Assembly: GCA_003388555.1 (NCBI GenBank) | Contig: QQVD01000006.1 | Span: 62,001 to 126,000, forward strand | Length of the DNA: 64,000 nucleotides | Direction of reading: 5' to 3' | From: Acidobacteriota bacterium | Lineage (GTDB): Bacteria; Acidobacteriota; Thermoanaerobaculia; Multivoradales; Multivoraceae | Shown here: positions 15,276-20,635 of the stretch, one piece after another | Layout of the letters: each line of letters starts with the position of its first letter | Position numbering within the stretch: position 1 is the stretch's first letter | Notes under the pieces: generated by a model | Database searches by the model: none | What the model was told of the DNA's origin: nothing | The model's input: only the letters and a program-made list of their open reading frames with translations | Translations under genes and position numbers: made by a program

Positions 15276-16577
15276 GTGCTCGACACGTCGGTGATCCTGC
15301 ACGACGGTCAGGTGCTCGAGCAGCTCGAGGACAACGACATCGCGGTGCCGATCACCGTGCTCGAGGAGCTCGACGGCTTCAAGAAGGGCAACAACGTGCT
15401 CTCGCAGCACGCCCGCGAGTTCATCCGGCGGCTCGATGCGCTGTCGGAGGATCCCGAGCACGACCTGCGCGACTGGCTCGATCTCGGCGACGAGCTCGGC
15501 CGGCTGTGCGTGATCTCCGAGGAGGCCGACAGCGACCAGCTGATGCTCGGCCTGCGCGGGCGCAGCAACGACCACCGCATCCTCGGCGCGGCGCTGTCGA
15601 TGCAGGCGCGCGAGCCCGGGCGTTCGGTGATCCTGATCAGCAAGGACATCAACCTGCGGGTCAAGGCGCGGGCGCTCGGCCTGGTGGCCGAGGACTACGA
15701 GAGCACCCAGGTCTCGGACGTCGAGCACCTCTACTCGGGAATGAGCGTCGAGCAGGTCGGCGAGGACGAGGTGATCGACGAGCTCTACTCCGAGGGCTCG
15801 ATGCCGCTGAGCCGGCTGCCGCAGGGCGACTGGCCGCTGAACCACCACCTGATCCTCAAGGGCCCGTCGCGCTCGGCCCTGGCCTACCGCGGCCGCAACG
15901 GCTCGATCCAGCTGGTGCGCAAGGTGCCCGCCTACGGCATCACGCCACGCAACGCCGAGCAGGTGTTCGCGCTCAACGCCATCCTCGACGACGAGATCCC
16001 GCTGGTCACGCTGACCGGCGGCGCCGGCACCGGCAAGACGCTGCTGGCGCTCGCCGGGGCGCTGGAACGTCGGCGCCGCTACCGCCAGATCCTGCTGGCG
16101 CGGCCGATCGTGCCGCTGTCGAACCGCGACCTCGGCTACCTGCCGGGCGACGTCGACTCCAAGATCTCCCCCTACATGCAGCCGCTGTGGGACAACCTCA
16201 GCGTCATCCGCGGCGCCTTCAGCGACGGCCACCGCGACACCCAGCGGCTCGACGAGATGCTCGAGCACGAGAAGCTGCAGATCGCGCCGCTCGCCTACAT
16301 CCGCGGCCGCAGCCTGTCGCGCTGCCTGTTCATCATCGACGAGGCGCAGAACCTGACGCCGCACGAGATCAAGACGATCATCACCCGCGCCGGCGAGGGC
16401 ACCAAGGTGGTGTTCACAGGCGACATCTTCCAGATCGACACGCCCTACCTGGATGCCCAGAGCAACGGGCTGTCGTACCTGGTCGACCGCATGCGCGGCC
16501 ATGCCCTCTACGCCCACGTCAACCTGCACAAGGGCGAGCGCTCCGAGCTGGCCAACCTGGCCACCGAGCTGCTCTGA
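15276..16577 (+). CDS. PhoH-family protein: PIN nuclease-like domain plus PhoH ATPase
   Basis: A 433-residue PhoH2-type protein: an N-terminal PIN (RNase-like) domain and a C-terminal PhoH helicase/ATPase domain, a family implicated in RNA unwinding and cleavage. The PIN strand FVLDTSVILHD opens the protein and TVLEELDGFKKG follows. Walker A is GGAGTGKT with Lys254, and Walker B is LFIIDEAQN with Asp355/Glu356, then VVFTGDIFQIDTPYLD. GTG at 15276 is given as the start only because it is the first standard start codon. It cuts into the first PIN strand, and the frame is open and coding-like back to 15114 with no ATG, GTG or TTG. An unusual start or an upstream indel is likely. Confidence 0.88.
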   Translation: MLDTSVILHDGQVLEQLEDNDIAVPITVLEELDGFKKGNNVLSQHAREFIRRLDALSEDPEHDLRDWLDLGDELGRLCVISEEADSDQLMLGLRGRSNDHRILGAALSMQAREPGRSVILISKDINLRVKARALGLVAEDYESTQVSDVEHLYSGMSVEQVGEDEVIDELYSEGSMPLSRLPQGDWPLNHHLILKGPSRSALAYRGRNGSIQLVRKVPAYGITPRNAEQVFALNAILDDEIPLVTLTGGAGTGKTLLALAGALERRRRYRQILLARPIVPLSNRDLGYLPGDVDSKISPYMQPLWDNLSVIRGAFSDGHRDTQRLDEMLEHEKLQIAPLAYIRGRSLSRCLFIIDEAQNLTPHEIKTIITRAGEGTKVVFTGDIFQIDTPYLDAQSNGLSYLVDRMRGHALYAHVNLHKGERSELANLATELL

Positions 16578-16643: not shown

Positions 16644-17924
16644 TCAGGCGAGAAGCCGGGCGTAGTCGAGGCCGACGCGCTCGATGTTGAGCTTGTGCAG
16701 GTAGTTCGAGAAGCACAGCCAGGCCGCAAGGCCGTGCAGGTCGGCGAGCTGCGGTGGCAGGAAGGCCGGCGGCTGCACGACTCCCTCCTCGATCAGGTCC
16801 CAGAGCGCCGGCACGTCCTGCAGCGCCGTCTTGCCGACGTAGAGCACCGGTATGCGCTCGAGCTTGGCGGCGCGCACTGCGACGTGCAGGAAGTTGAACA
16901 CCTCGACGAAGCCGCGGGTGTACGACAGATCCTTGGTGAACGGGCCGCGGTCGGGCAGTGAGCCGCGGAAAGCACGCATCGCCGATCGATACGACGTCTT
17001 GACGGTGAACCCCTGCTCGCGGAAGAAGCGAAAGACTTCGAGGAAGTCGGCACCGTCCTCGATCTGGCGGATCGCCTCGACCCGGTTGGCCAGTCGCCGC
17101 AGCCGCGAAGTGTGCGACGAGAAGGTCAGCACCTCCATGAGCACTGCCAGCCCCTCCTGGGTCACCGTCGACGACGGCGGCCCCTTCTGCAGGAAGGTGC
17201 AGACCTTCTGCTGGCGGGCGTTGAAGTTGGTGCCCAGATGCACCCACCCCTCGTGCACCTCGAGCAGGCGCAGGTCGCGCTCGGAGAACTTGGCGTCGTG
17301 GCGCAGCTTGACGTAGTCGGCACCCGCGGCGGCGTCGGCGACGATGCCGTCGCTGAGCAGCACCCGCGGCTCGGCCGCGGTCTCGCCGAACGCCACGTCG
17401 AGGCGCTCGGAGAGGATCCGCACGCCCGTCTCCGCGTCGTGGACCTTGTCGGCCTCCTCGAGCAGGTCGCTGTCGTCGAGCCGATCGAGCAGCTCGGTCA
17501 TCCAGCTGCCGAGGTCGGCGAGGTTCGACTCGCCGACGTGGAAGGCGTCGTGCGCCGAACCGTAGAGCTCGCTCGAGATCTCCGAGAAGCCGTCGGTGCC
17601 TCGGGCTTCGAGCAGATCCAGCACGCGGCGGTACTCGCGGCACATCCGGGTGAGAATGGCGCCGACCGAGTGGAAGGCGCCGAGCCGCGCCTGCACGTCG
17701 CGCTCCAGAGCCCGCAGCTCGGCCCGCTTGTCCTCGAGATCGAACCCGAGGGGGCGCTCGAGGTAGGTCTCGCGCGTCACCTCCGGCATCTCGCGGCCGC
17801 GCTGGGCGAGAAAGCGCTCCTCGATCTGGTCGCTCCACTGGATGGCGTTGAGGATGCGGATCGGCTGCTGCGCCTGCACCAGGCGGTCGGAGAGCTCGCG
17901 GATGGTCTCGTGGGTGTGATGCAT
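16644..17924 (-). CDS. DUF1704 / QEGLA-motif protein, zincin-like carboxypeptidase family (MATCAP-related)
   Basis: A 426-residue member of the DUF1704 family, annotated in databases as flavohemoglobin-expression-modulating QEGLA-motif protein. The QEGLA motif is at 256-260 and a metal-binding HExxxH (HEGWVH) at 224-229. Eukaryotic relatives (KIAA0895L/MATCAP) are tubulin tyrosine carboxypeptidases using this HExxxH site, so the bacterial protein is plausibly a metallo-carboxypeptidase. A predicted catalytic partner region with RIPVLYVGKTAL follows near the C-terminus. The start is ATG at 17924 (MHHTHETIREL). The gene is divergent from the RimB-like and RimK genes, with 113 bases between starts, a setting that suggests processing of a ligase-made peptide tag. 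That functional link is inference. Confidence 0.85.
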   Translation of the reverse strand: MHHTHETIRELSDRLVQAQQPIRILNAIQWSDQIEERFLAQRGREMPEVTRETYLERPLGFDLEDKRAELRALERDVQARLGAFHSVGAILTRMCREYRRVLDLLEARGTDGFSEISSELYGSAHDAFHVGESNLADLGSWMTELLDRLDDSDLLEEADKVHDAETGVRILSERLDVAFGETAAEPRVLLSDGIVADAAAGADYVKLRHDAKFSERDLRLLEVHEGWVHLGTNFNARQQKVCTFLQKGPPSSTVTQEGLAVLMEVLTFSSHTSRLRRLANRVEAIRQIEDGADFLEVFRFFREQGFTVKTSYRSAMRAFRGSLPDRGPFTKDLSYTRGFVEVFNFLHVAVRAAKLERIPVLYVGKTALQDVPALWDLIEEGVVQPPAFLPPQLADLHGLAAWLCFSNYLHKLNIERVGLDYARLLA

Positions 17925-18037
17925 GACTGGCGCGGTGAGCGGCGACGCCCCGGATCCACTCCAGGAGAGGAGCGTGCGGCCTACAATACGCTGACGCGGC
18001 AGGAGTTGCCGCTCCGCCCCGTCGCCGGTCACCGACC

Positions 18038-18538
18038 ATGCCGTCCACTTCCCAGACCCGATCCCCGGACGCGGCCGAGGAGCGTCGAGCCGAATCGAGC
18101 GAGGCGCCGACGGTGATCGGCTGGCGCGAGCGCGTCTCCCTGCCAGACTGGGGACTGTTCGATCTGCGCGCCAAGGCCGACACCGGTGCGCGCTCGAGCG
18201 CACTCGACGTCTCCTCGATCGAGGAGACCGACGACGGCAGGAAGGTGCGCTTCACGGTGATCGCCGACCGCGCCGGCGACGGCGTCGAGAAGGTCGTCGA
18301 GGCGCCGATCGTGCGCCACACCCACGTGCGCTCGAGCTTCGGTCGCCGCGCCCGGCGGATCTTCGTGCGCACCCGGGTGGTGGTGGCGGGGCGCGAGTTC
18401 GTCACCGAGATCGGGCTGGTCGACCGCAGCAAGATGCTCTGCCGCATGCTGCTCGGCCGGCGCTCCCTGCAGGGGCGCTTCCTGGTCGACTCCAGGAGCA
18501 CCTACCTGCACGGCCGTCGACGCACGCGCGAGCGCTGA
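18038..18538 (+). CDS. RimB-type retropepsin-like protease (Zn_protease / RimK-associated family)
   Basis: A 166-residue protein of the PF05618-type family, often labelled ATP-dependent zinc protease but with a retropepsin-like fold. The active-site signature is ADTGARSS with Asp48. The later MLLGRRSLQGRFLVDS is the family's second conserved block. In Pseudomonas the related RimB acts opposite RimK, removing or limiting poly-glutamate added to ribosomal protein S6. Here a RimK gene follows 148 bases downstream in the same direction, which supports a RimB-like role. The N-terminal 25 residues are low-complexity; there is no signal peptide, so it acts in the cytoplasm. Confidence 0.83.
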   Translation: MPSTSQTRSPDAAEERRAESSEAPTVIGWRERVSLPDWGLFDLRAKADTGARSSALDVSSIEETDDGRKVRFTVIADRAGDGVEKVVEAPIVRHTHVRSSFGRRARRIFVRTRVVVAGREFVTEIGLVDRSKMLCRMLLGRRSLQGRFLVDSRSTYLHGRRRTRER

Positions 18539-18686
18539 GCCGGCGCGCCGGCCTGCGCAGCCCGGTCGGCCTCGGGAGGTCACTGCATCAGGCGCTCTTC
18601 TCGTACTCTTCCCGATCCCCTCGGCCGAAATCGCCGCCGGCTCGCGTTGCCTCGCTGTGCGGTCGCTGATAGGAGAACGGGCTGTG

Positions 18687-19880
18687 ATGAAAATCGGAAT
18701 CCTGTCGCGCGCCCCCAACTCCTACAGCACCCGTCGCCTGGTCCAGGCGGCCGAGAAGGCCGGACTCGAGGTCCGCCGCCTCGACGTGCTCGACTGCGCC
18801 GTCTCACTGGAAGAGGGCTTCCCGGACCTCTACCACCGGGGTCAGCCGGTCGGCGAGCTCGACGCCGTGGTGCCGCGCATCGGCGCCTCGGTGACCTTCT
18901 ACGGCACCGCGGTGCTGCGCCAGCTCGAGCAGATGGACGTCTTCTGCGTCAACAGCGCCACCGCGATCATCAACTCGCGCGACAAGCTGCGCTCGCTGCA
19001 GATCCTCAGCCGCCACCATCTGGGCATCCCACCCACCGAGTTCGTGCGCCGCAAACAGGACGTGATGCCGGCGATCGAGCGGGTCGGCGGCGCACCGGTG
19101 ATCATCAAGCTGCTCGAGGGCACCCAGGGGGTCGGCGTCATCCTCGCCGACACCGAATCGGTGGCCGCGGCGATCATCGAGACCCTGCAGAGCACGCGAC
19201 AGAACGTGCTGATCCAGAAGTTCGTCGCCGAGAGCCGCGGCCGCGACGTGCGCGCCTTCGTCATCGGCGACCGGGTGGTCGGTGCGATGCGGCGGGTGGC
19301 GCAGGGACAGGAGTTCCGCAGCAACGTGCATCGCGGCGGTAAGGCCGAGTCGATCGAGCTCGACGACCACTACGCCGAAACGGCGGTGCGCGCGTCGCAG
19401 ATCCTCGGCCTGCGGGTGGCGGGAGTCGACATGCTCGAGGGAGCCGACGGCCCGCAGATCACCGAGGTCAACTCGTCGCCCGGCCTCGAGGGCATCGAGT
19501 CCGCCACCGGCAAGGACATCGCCGGCGCGGTGATCGACTACGTGCGCGAGAACGTCGACTTCCCCGAGCTCGACATCCGCCAGCGACTGACGATCTCGCG
19601 CGGCTACGGCGTCGCCGAGCTGCCGATCGGCGAGCTCACCGCCCTCGCCGGCAAGTCGATCGCCGAGTGCGGGCTGCGCGAGGGCGACGTGCAGATCCTC
19701 ACCCTCTTCCGCGACGGCAAGGCGATCCAGAACCCGCGCAGCTCGCGGGTTCTCGAGCTCGGCGATCGGCTGCTCTGCTTCGGCAAGCTCGAGGTGATGC
19801 GCAGCTTCCTGCCCGACCGCAAGCCGCCACGAGTCCGCAAGCTGCGGCGCGCGGAATCACGATCGAGGGCGAGCTCGTGA
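18687..19880 (+). CDS. rimK: RimK-family ATP-grasp ligase with C-terminal RCK_C-like domain
   Basis: A 397-residue ATP-grasp enzyme of the RimK family, which ligates L-glutamate (or a similar amino acid) to a protein or metabolite carboxyl terminus. The RimK part covers residues 1-290: MKIGILSRAPNSYST, the ATP-grasp lysine in VIIKLLEGTQGVGV, QKFVAESRGRDVRAF, and the metal-binding ITEVNSSPGLEGIE. The remaining ~100 residues, especially 301-375, read as a TrkA_C/RCK_C ligand-binding domain: VAELPIGELTALAGKSIAEC, then LELGDRLLCFGKLEVM. That domain usually senses nucleotides or ions in transporters and is not part of E. coli RimK. ATG at 18687 follows AGGAGA at 18671-18676. The gene overlaps the next by four bases (GTGA). 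Confidence 0.88.
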   Translation: MKIGILSRAPNSYSTRRLVQAAEKAGLEVRRLDVLDCAVSLEEGFPDLYHRGQPVGELDAVVPRIGASVTFYGTAVLRQLEQMDVFCVNSATAIINSRDKLRSLQILSRHHLGIPPTEFVRRKQDVMPAIERVGGAPVIIKLLEGTQGVGVILADTESVAAAIIETLQSTRQNVLIQKFVAESRGRDVRAFVIGDRVVGAMRRVAQGQEFRSNVHRGGKAESIELDDHYAETAVRASQILGLRVAGVDMLEGADGPQITEVNSSPGLEGIESATGKDIAGAVIDYVRENVDFPELDIRQRLTISRGYGVAELPIGELTALAGKSIAECGLREGDVQILTLFRDGKAIQNPRSSRVLELGDRLLCFGKLEVMRSFLPDRKPPRVRKLRRAESRSRASS

Positions 19881-20635
19881 GCCCGAACGACAGCCGGAGC
19901 GACGGCGCGAGCGGTGGCCCGGTCGGTGGAGGCGACCTCCGCGTCGACGTCTTCTTCTCGTTTCGCAGCCCCTACTCCTACCTCGCGGTGCACCGCATGC
20001 GGCGGCTGCAGCGGGAGTACGCCCTGTCCTTCGACGTCCGCGTGGTACTGCCGATCGCGGTGCGCACGCCGGAGTTCTTCGAGCGCGTCAACCCGCTCTG
20101 GCCCCCCTACCTGCTGCGCGACATCGTCCGCGTCGCGGAGTACGAGGGCGTGCCGATCCGTTGGCCGCGCCCCGATCCGGTGGCGATGGACCGTGCCACT
20201 GGCCGCTACCCCATCGGCGAGGAGAACCAGCCGCGCATCTGGTGGGTGTCGCGTTTGTGCGCCGCCGCCCAGGAGCAGGGAACGAGCACCGCTTTCACCT
20301 TCGAGGTGGCGCCGACGATCTGGGACGGCGGCACCGACGACTGGCACGAGGGCGATCACCTCGAGAGAGCCTGCGGGCGCGCCCGGATCGACTACGCGGC
20401 GCTCGCCGCACGGGTGCGCGACGAGCCGGCGAGCCTCGACGCGTTGATCGAAGGCAACCAGGAGGCGCTCCGCGCCGCCGGTCACTGGGGCGTGCCGACC
20501 TTCGTCTACGACGGCGAGCCCTTCTTCGGCCAGGACCGCATCGACCTGCTGGTGTGGAGGCTGCACCAGCGGGGGCTGCGGCGCCGCGACGCCGCCACCG
20601 GCGCGACGAACGACGCCGAGGGCACCTCGCCGTGA
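19877..20635 (+). CDS. 2-hydroxychromene-2-carboxylate isomerase-like DsbA-fold protein
   Basis: A 252-residue protein of the HCCA isomerase / kappa-GST group within the DsbA thioredoxin superfamily. It begins its fold with VDVFFSFRSPYSYLAVHRM, where Ser replaces the Cys of true DsbA, as is usual for HCCA isomerases that use glutathione. The family ends with GVPTFVYDGEPFFGQDRIDLL, which is present. Known members isomerise a naphthalene breakdown intermediate, but many are of unknown substrate and no aromatic degradation genes are nearby. GTG at 19877 overlaps the rimK stop, and its own stop overlaps the next GTG. The three genes are therefore probably translated together. Confidence 0.82.
   Translation: MSPNDSRSDGASGGPVGGGDLRVDVFFSFRSPYSYLAVHRMRRLQREYALSFDVRVVLPIAVRTPEFFERVNPLWPPYLLRDIVRVAEYEGVPIRWPRPDPVAMDRATGRYPIGEENQPRIWWVSRLCAAAQEQGTSTAFTFEVAPTIWDGGTDDWHEGDHLERACGRARIDYAALAARVRDEPASLDALIEGNQEALRAAGHWGVPTFVYDGEPFFGQDRIDLLVWRLHQRGLRRRDAATGATNDAEGTSP

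Follow-up and report, generated by a model that had tools for sequence, protein, structure and literature searches.

A MATCAP metallopeptidase gene beside rimB-like and rimK genes in an Acidobacteriota genome: a possible replaceable trimmer of RimK-made glutamate chains

Introduction

Two described systems bear on the locus analyzed here. In the RimABK ribosome-modification system of Pseudomonas, the ligase RimK adds alpha-linked glutamates, and the protease RimB cleaves chains of about 5 to 6 or more contiguous glutamates (PMC11957791); RimK also makes free poly-alpha-glutamate (PMC11957791 and PMC12239564). In eukaryotes, the TMCP/MATCAP enzymes, known from work on human cells and Tetrahymena as trimmers of tubulin, shorten its glutamate chains (PMC10499314). 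Here we consider a 64,000-nucleotide stretch of an Acidobacteriota genome (contig QQVD01000006.1, positions 62,001 to 126,000; "the window") in which a MATCAP gene lies divergently beside rimB-like and rimK genes. In total, intact motifs, co-occurrence of MATCAP with RimK, and a pattern in which certain MATCAPs occur where an AstE/AspA-type enzyme is missing lead us to a proposal that we favor tentatively, with slightly less than even confidence: MATCAP would be a metal-dependent and replaceable enzyme that trims the glutamate chains made by RimK, on a target that is unlikely to be ribosomal protein S6.

The locus and its gene families

An initial annotation had described a DUF1704 protein with an HExxxH motif, divergent from a RimB-like retropepsin and a RimK ligase. 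This three-gene observation is confirmed by the reading frames and by Pfam and NCBIfam matches far above chance, with the DUF1704 protein identified as MATCAP on the minus strand and its two neighbors on the plus strand:

16644 to 17924, minus strand: MATCAP (DUF1704, PF08014) metallopeptidase; Pfam 414 bits (E 6e-124), NCBIfam TIGR02421 381 bits; metal site HEGWVH plus the Glu of QEGLA.
17925 to 18037, no strand: divergent intergenic stretch of 113 bp between the MATCAP and rimB-like genes, from the open reading frame (ORF) coordinates.
18038 to 18538, plus strand: RimB-like retropepsin (PF05618) with a DTGA motif; Pfam 69 bits, NCBIfam RimB 80.5 bits.
18687 to 19880 (ORF from 18657), plus strand: RimK-type glutamate ligase (ATP-grasp), with its probable start at the family Met at 18687; Pfam RimK 186 bits, Rimk_N 121 bits.
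19611 to 19808, plus strand: TrkA_C (RCK_C) domain at the RimK C terminus; Pfam 33.7 bits, cutoff 27.

MATCAP scores above both curated cutoffs (27 bits for PF08014 and 339 bits for TIGR02421). Its long ORF extends to 18203, and homology together with an ATG points to a start near 17924. In an alignment of 15 sequences, H225, E226, H230, and E258 are invariant, as are R318, R321, D333, and Y336, with K332 nearly so; roles in the metal site for HExxxH and for a third ligand in (E/Q)EG are given in PMC10499314. A profile built from the MATCAP alignment matches the human KIAA0895-like protein (MATCAP, 7z5g) with E 2.2e-10 over about 240 positions, both motifs being aligned, although a single-sequence search against solved structures returned nothing relevant. 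The window protein thus has in common with human MATCAP/TMCP1 and TMCP2 (KIAA0895L and KIAA0895) the PF08014 domain, HExxxH, the E of (E/Q)EG, and an R..RG...KD..Y stretch; it differs in that there is no tubulin, and the likeness is at the profile level only. Structure prediction from 11 rows (the window protein and ten mutually close gammaproteobacterial sequences) was poor, with a mean predicted local distance difference test (pLDDT) score of 48.9. Scanned viral contigs gave 17 pattern matches, with no relative among them.

The RimB-like protein combines the retropepsin profile with a DTG motif (ADTGARSS in the translation). Because its NCBIfam RimB score lies far under the equivalog cutoff of 200 bits, with RloA3 close behind at 71.0 bits, we class it as RimB-like rather than RimB; PDB entries 9g59 and 2pma are weak matches. 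It sits directly beside rimK on the same strand, an adjacency that recurs in the phylum set, where 19 of 21 PF05618 places adjoin a RimK match. RimK itself scores 247 bits against TIGR00768 (RimK family ATP-grasp; cutoff 143) and, at 297.6 bits, falls below the cutoff of 331 for PRK10446, the S6--glutamate ligase equivalog. Its best PDB match is 7qyr, "Probable alpha-L-glutamate ligase" (E 4.8e-97), across the whole ligase part; 7qyr and 7qys are presumably Pseudomonas proteins. The four best solved RimK-type chains are 306 to 320 amino acids long and align only to residue 300, leaving the TrkA_C tail outside the match. Such a tail is matched in 10 of 19 other RimK loci (L178, L181-L185, L187, L191, L192, and L194), and the domain probably senses a small ligand or ion.

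Compared with the Pseudomonas RimABK system, then, the window has the same adjacent and co-directional retropepsin and ligase genes, the DTG motif, and the full-length match of the ligase part; it differs in the TrkA_C domain of RimK, the divergence of RimB, an S6 tail without Glu, and the adjacent MATCAP. Pseudomonas does have MATCAP, but RimB and RimK are absent from the MATCAP flanks examined.

MATCAP occurs with RimK but away from it

The initial annotation regarded a lack of association between DUF1704 and ATP-grasp genes in relatives as evidence that would refute its proposal. When a phylum sample of 395 genomes was searched with the window RimK, 64 gave a match: 34 with a true RimK (identity of at least 43%) and 30 with only weaker ATP-grasp paralogues (at most 37%). 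This line was drawn after the identity gap had been seen, and for most genomes no more than four candidates were scored. MATCAP was found in 10 of the 34 true-RimK genomes, in 1 of the 30 with paralogues only, and in none of the 331 with neither. Put the other way, 10 of 11 MATCAP genomes carry RimK, against a background of 34/395. All nine genomes with a short MATCAP have a true RimK (nominal p 9e-11, relatedness ignored), and the long MATCAPs described below lie beside a glutathione-synthetase-like ligase, so an association with ATP-grasp genes does exist. Only 5 of the 11 MATCAP genomes also have RimB, and MATCAP therefore follows the ligase rather than the protease. As a control, PhaC was flat (1 of 11 MATCAP genomes, 0.8 expected; its matches are mostly partial, and 14 of the 29 PhaC genomes belong to one genus).

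Relatedness weakens this signal and does not remove it. In the window's order, RimK accompanies MATCAP in 8 of 8 genomes versus 27/72 overall (p 0.011, stratified by family), and within the class of genome G179 the association has p 0.030. All 32 MATCAP-bearing Pseudomonas-type genomes searched (drawn from the best 80 loci) carry RimK; since RimK is usual in Pseudomonas, this is merely consistent with the association. A replicate sample from another class comprised 26 genomes, all of them already among those examined, and so is not independent.

The idea of a conserved MATCAP-RimB-RimK tag locus, in contrast, did not survive the genome-context survey. Of the 72 genomes sampled in the order, 8 carry MATCAP, 26 a RimB-family gene, and 27 RimK, and MATCAP is off the RimK-match contigs in all seven other MATCAP genomes. 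The phylum sample has MATCAP in 11 genomes, 8 of them outside the order, where it is again off those contigs. In the flanks of the best 80 MATCAP relatives listed from a species-genome collection (78 titled Pseudomonas, about 55% identity), 0 of 80 loci have a RimB or RimK match, in flanks of at most 10 kb and shorter in some. Since adjacency is seen in only 1 of the 16 MATCAP genomes examined, there is no conserved three-gene locus; among these genomes the neighborhood is private to that of the window.

How might the window have come by its MATCAP? The protein is 54 to 56% identical to those of Pseudomonas versus 33 to 36% to the other short MATCAPs of its own order. In a tree of 23 proteins it groups with that of genome G373 and with Pseudomonas (support 95/91), nested in a larger group (100/100) that includes Legionella, Pseudoalteromonas, and Aeromonas. 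Because it groups with gammaproteobacterial MATCAPs and is distant from those of its own order, the gene was probably acquired. Genome G007 offers a side observation: its MATCAP frame is interrupted by a transposase-like gene, with a further MATCAP piece after it (L077:4220-6759).

An AstE/AspA-type enzyme is the usual neighbor of RimK

Is there, then, a third enzyme at other RimK loci? When neighbors were clustered for the 11 loci with a TrkA_C-bearing RimK (the window included), an AstE/AspA-type gene lay directly after rimK in seven and 2.7 kb off in an eighth. The four products tested scored 117 to 127 bits against Pfam AstE_AspA_cat, and one has a Peptidase_M14 match just below cutoff; on account of these matches, the neighbor is probably a carboxypeptidase-type zinc enzyme. 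Among 51 informative RimK genomes from both samples, AstE is at the RimK locus in 37 and not in 14. The expectation of a third metal-dependent enzyme beside RimK thus holds for the phylum as to the presence of such an enzyme, and not as to its identity, which there is AstE/AspA and not MATCAP.

These counts follow several conventions. Partial second Rimk_N matches (G004:C107, G024:C156, G042:C38) were left out, as were G238, whose RimK is at a contig end (reducing 52 genomes to 51), and G408, which is without a true RimK. G130, with a long MATCAP, was counted as AstE-bearing and not among the nine other short-MATCAP hosts considered below. G043 was also counted as AstE-bearing, although its AstE gene is on the opposite strand at a distance of 2.7 kb and its RimK extends to the end of the contig. 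In G022, AstE adjoins RimB at one locus and follows RimK at the other; of the two RimK copies in G038, just one is accompanied by AstE. The broken or partial MATCAPs of G007, G023, and G215 are outside the tree; the first two were placed by similarity and G215 only via its genus mate G179.

The AstE-bearing rimK loci of the phylum are L177, L179, L182-L191, L193-L195, L272, L274-L276, and L282-L289, together with L312, L313, L316-L319, L321, L323-L325, and L328. Annotated RimB-RimK-AstE operons also occur on Salinivibrio, Phaeobacter, and Acaryochloris plasmids (L306-L308). In G179, AstE and RimK matches fall within one frame (L282:7802-9550), which may reflect either a fusion of the two or an error in the frame. 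No function for an AstE/AspA-type member of a rim operon is stated in the literature searched.

What the window shares with these operons is a RimK accompanied by another metal-type hydrolase and, in many of them, by RimB (not all of the 37 genomes have RimB). It differs in that their enzyme is of family PF24827 and mostly co-directional and directly downstream of rimK, whereas MATCAP is divergent and upstream. The AstE profile has no match anywhere in the 64-kb window, where a DsbA-like gene follows rimK instead.

A wider tree clade containing the window MATCAP (clade 1, support 99/98) is represented in this phylum by the window genome and by G373, G133, G165, and G158. All five hosts are AstE-less, versus nine of nine other short-MATCAP hosts with AstE at the RimK locus (p 0.0005; p 0.0009 against all 51 genomes). 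Beyond the phylum, fetched RimK loci of Pseudomonas have RimB and no AstE in 15/15 (flanks of at least 2.3 kb; 15 of the 32 genomes). In Aeromonas caviae, neither AstE nor RimB lies within the 7-kb flanks of RimK, and the MATCAP is of clade 1. In three MATCAP genomes of one class, a pyruvate phosphate dikinase (PPDK)-like gene lies directly before rimK (L279:5847-9502, L280:5210-9065, L281:1717-5418); RimB has no match in these three, with the Pfam check made on L279 only.

Ribosomal protein S6 as the target

The single S6 match in the window genome ends in ...KKKPETATASA and so has no C-terminal Glu acceptor. We compared S6 tails in 31 genomes (the window genome and the best 30 of 68 S6-matching genomes). 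Glu-terminal S6 is equally rare with and without RimK, at 2 of 17 RimK-bearing versus 2 of 14 RimK-free genomes in the order. With its tail ending in ...TATASA, S6 is an unlikely target and was rejected as the likely substrate, which the initial annotation had put forward. According to PMC11957791, some S6 tails are without a terminal Glu, and RimK may have other roles.

A proposed mechanism and its alternatives

We propose the following model. RimK would chain glutamates onto a protein C terminus, or make free poly-alpha-glutamate, and RimB would cut long chains internally. Since RimB needs about 5 to 6 contiguous glutamates (PMC11957791), a stub would be expected to remain, and a metal-dependent carboxypeptidase could then strip the leftover glutamates singly. 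In most relatives this third job would probably fall to the AstE/AspA zinc enzyme whose gene lies at the RimK locus. We posit that clade-1 MATCAP took over that job in the window genome, Pseudomonas, Aeromonas, and a few others, finishing what RimB leaves, and that it came to lie beside rimBK in the window genome only. The genes, their intact motifs, the co-occurrence with RimK, and the AstE/MATCAP replacement pattern are observed; enzymatic activity, substrate, trimming direction, and ligand gating are parts of the model. The notion that MATCAP trims a RimK-made tag is thus partly supported, and human relatives do shorten glutamate chains (PMC10499314).

Several observations weigh against this proposal. 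MATCAP is unlinked to the RimK contig in 15 of 15 other MATCAP genomes, and among genomes of the order of at least 4.5 Mb, without genus g4, the size-matched association is weak (p 0.047). The replacement pattern was noticed post hoc and not predicted; three of the five clade-1 hosts share one class and the PPDK-RimK arrangement, and collapsing them gives p 0.012. A genome called AstE-less is so within the fetched flank (at least 1.7 kb downstream of RimK), a call that does not extend to the rest of the genome. MATCAP is unmatched in 9 of the 14 AstE-less RimK genomes (G005, G016, G024, G072, G086, G230, G233, G243, and G434), AstE at RimK coexists with a short MATCAP of another clade in nine genomes, and G130 has AstE together with a long MATCAP. 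Records of Vibrio campbellii and Halomonas have RimK without AstE (5-kb flanks), and of the 11 records in a plasmid collection (not whole genomes) that have a MATCAP match above 40% identity, none is from Vibrio or Halomonas. The S6 tail of the window genome, without a glutamate end, counts on the same side, as does the literature searched, in which no activity of a bacterial MATCAP was found.

Could the neighborhood simply be due to chance? An acquired MATCAP might have landed between phoH2 and rimB and act in a way unrelated to RimK, its co-occurrence with the ligase reflecting a shared lifestyle or gene-transfer habits. We consider this quite possible without being probable. It fits an adjacency seen once in 16 genomes and in none of the 80 best Pseudomonas-type loci, a protein closer to those of Pseudomonas than to those of its own order, an orientation that is not co-directional with rimBK, and the weak size-matched association. 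However, the weak ATP-grasp paralogues and PhaC are likewise patchy and do not co-occur with MATCAP, and lifestyle alone hardly explains an AstE/MATCAP split that is also borne out by the loci examined in Pseudomonas and Aeromonas.

In a second alternative, the substrates of MATCAP would be small glutamyl peptides or free poly-alpha-glutamate and not a protein tag, and the enzyme would recycle glutamate, for example, for osmotic balance. Free poly-alpha-glutamate is indeed made by RimK (PMC11957791; PMC12239564), the window S6 is without a glutamate end, and MscS, CorA, TrkA/TrkH, or TrkA_C-bearing transporters lie near some relatives' RimK/RimB loci (ten neighbors picked by eye). Because that transporter association was computed without a background, an ionic role for the RimK system stays a lead only. 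The long MATCAPs, in an operon with an N-formylglutamate amidohydrolase and a glutathione-synthetase-like ligase, also agree with action on small peptides, but they form a distant clade, and the substrates of the human relatives are protein tails (PMC10499314). We regard this alternative as unlikely.

The version in the initial annotation, in which three genes form a locus dedicated to writing and erasing a glutamate tail on S6, is highly improbable: the three genes are present with intact motifs, and the match of RimK to solved RimK-type ligases spans the entire ligase part, but the arrangement is not conserved, and the S6 tails with and without RimK, the window's included, are as described above.

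Returning to replaceable trimming by MATCAP, we speculate on a broader form of it, which we consider somewhat unlikely as a whole. In this form, RimK polyglutamylation would be a three-part module of RimK as writer, RimB as endo-eraser, and a replaceable metal-dependent exo-eraser, with exo-erasers drawn from the same two superfamilies as the tubulin erasers (M14-type, here AstE/AspA, and MATCAP); TrkA_C would tie the writer to ion or osmotic state, and the target would not be S6.

Novelty and meaning

All three families, and RimB-RimK as a system, have been described before; the literature searched has nothing that links MATCAP to RimK. The literature on RimK and aspartoacylase, judged by titles and the starts of abstracts, appears to be human, animal, or medical. 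A 2009 study of ATP-grasp amidoligases by Iyer et al. may, reportedly, already discuss some of these neighborhoods. Bacterial MATCAPs (QEGLA proteins) carry an unrelated database name, with no tested function in the literature searched. Close relatives of the window MATCAP, found in the other bacteria examined where AstE is missing, hint at swappable glutamate-tag erasers. If the proposal is true, bacteria, as eukaryotes do, would edit glutamate tags by pairing an ATP-grasp writer with erasers of the M14 or MATCAP type, and a function would be at hand for the Pseudomonas MATCAP gene and a role for the AstE-like gene after rimK.

The long MATCAP operon

Long MATCAPs, of about 620 to 635 amino acids, form a separate and distant clade with support 100/100 in the tree of 23 proteins. 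They lie in a tight operon in the order N-formylglutamate amidohydrolase, long MATCAP, glutathione-synthetase-like ATP-grasp, found in two genomes of the window's class, G130 and G408, and on two alphaproteobacterial plasmids, from Shinella and Aminobacter (L174:7874-11687, L175:8121-11802, L267:6337-10081, L268:6331-10075). Like the window, this operon places a MATCAP beside an ATP-grasp ligase; unlike it, the MATCAP is of a separate clade and the ligase of another family, and RimB is not in the stretches seen.

Flanking genes and minor observations

Two further genes flank the locus:

15276 to 16577, plus strand: PhoH2-like protein with PIN and PhoH ATPase domains; Pfam PhoH 164 bits, PIN_4 110 bits; a convergent neighbor outside the proposed module.
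19940 to 20635, plus strand: DsbA-like protein, at the site of AstE/AspA in relatives; Pfam DSBA 66 bits.

PhoH2 has no match in the 20 RimB/RimK loci of relatives that were searched. Farther upstream, the window ORF from 12516 begins, as read from its translation, with eight-residue repeat units (GAKHSDDG-like), which suggests a short intergenic DNA tandem repeat.

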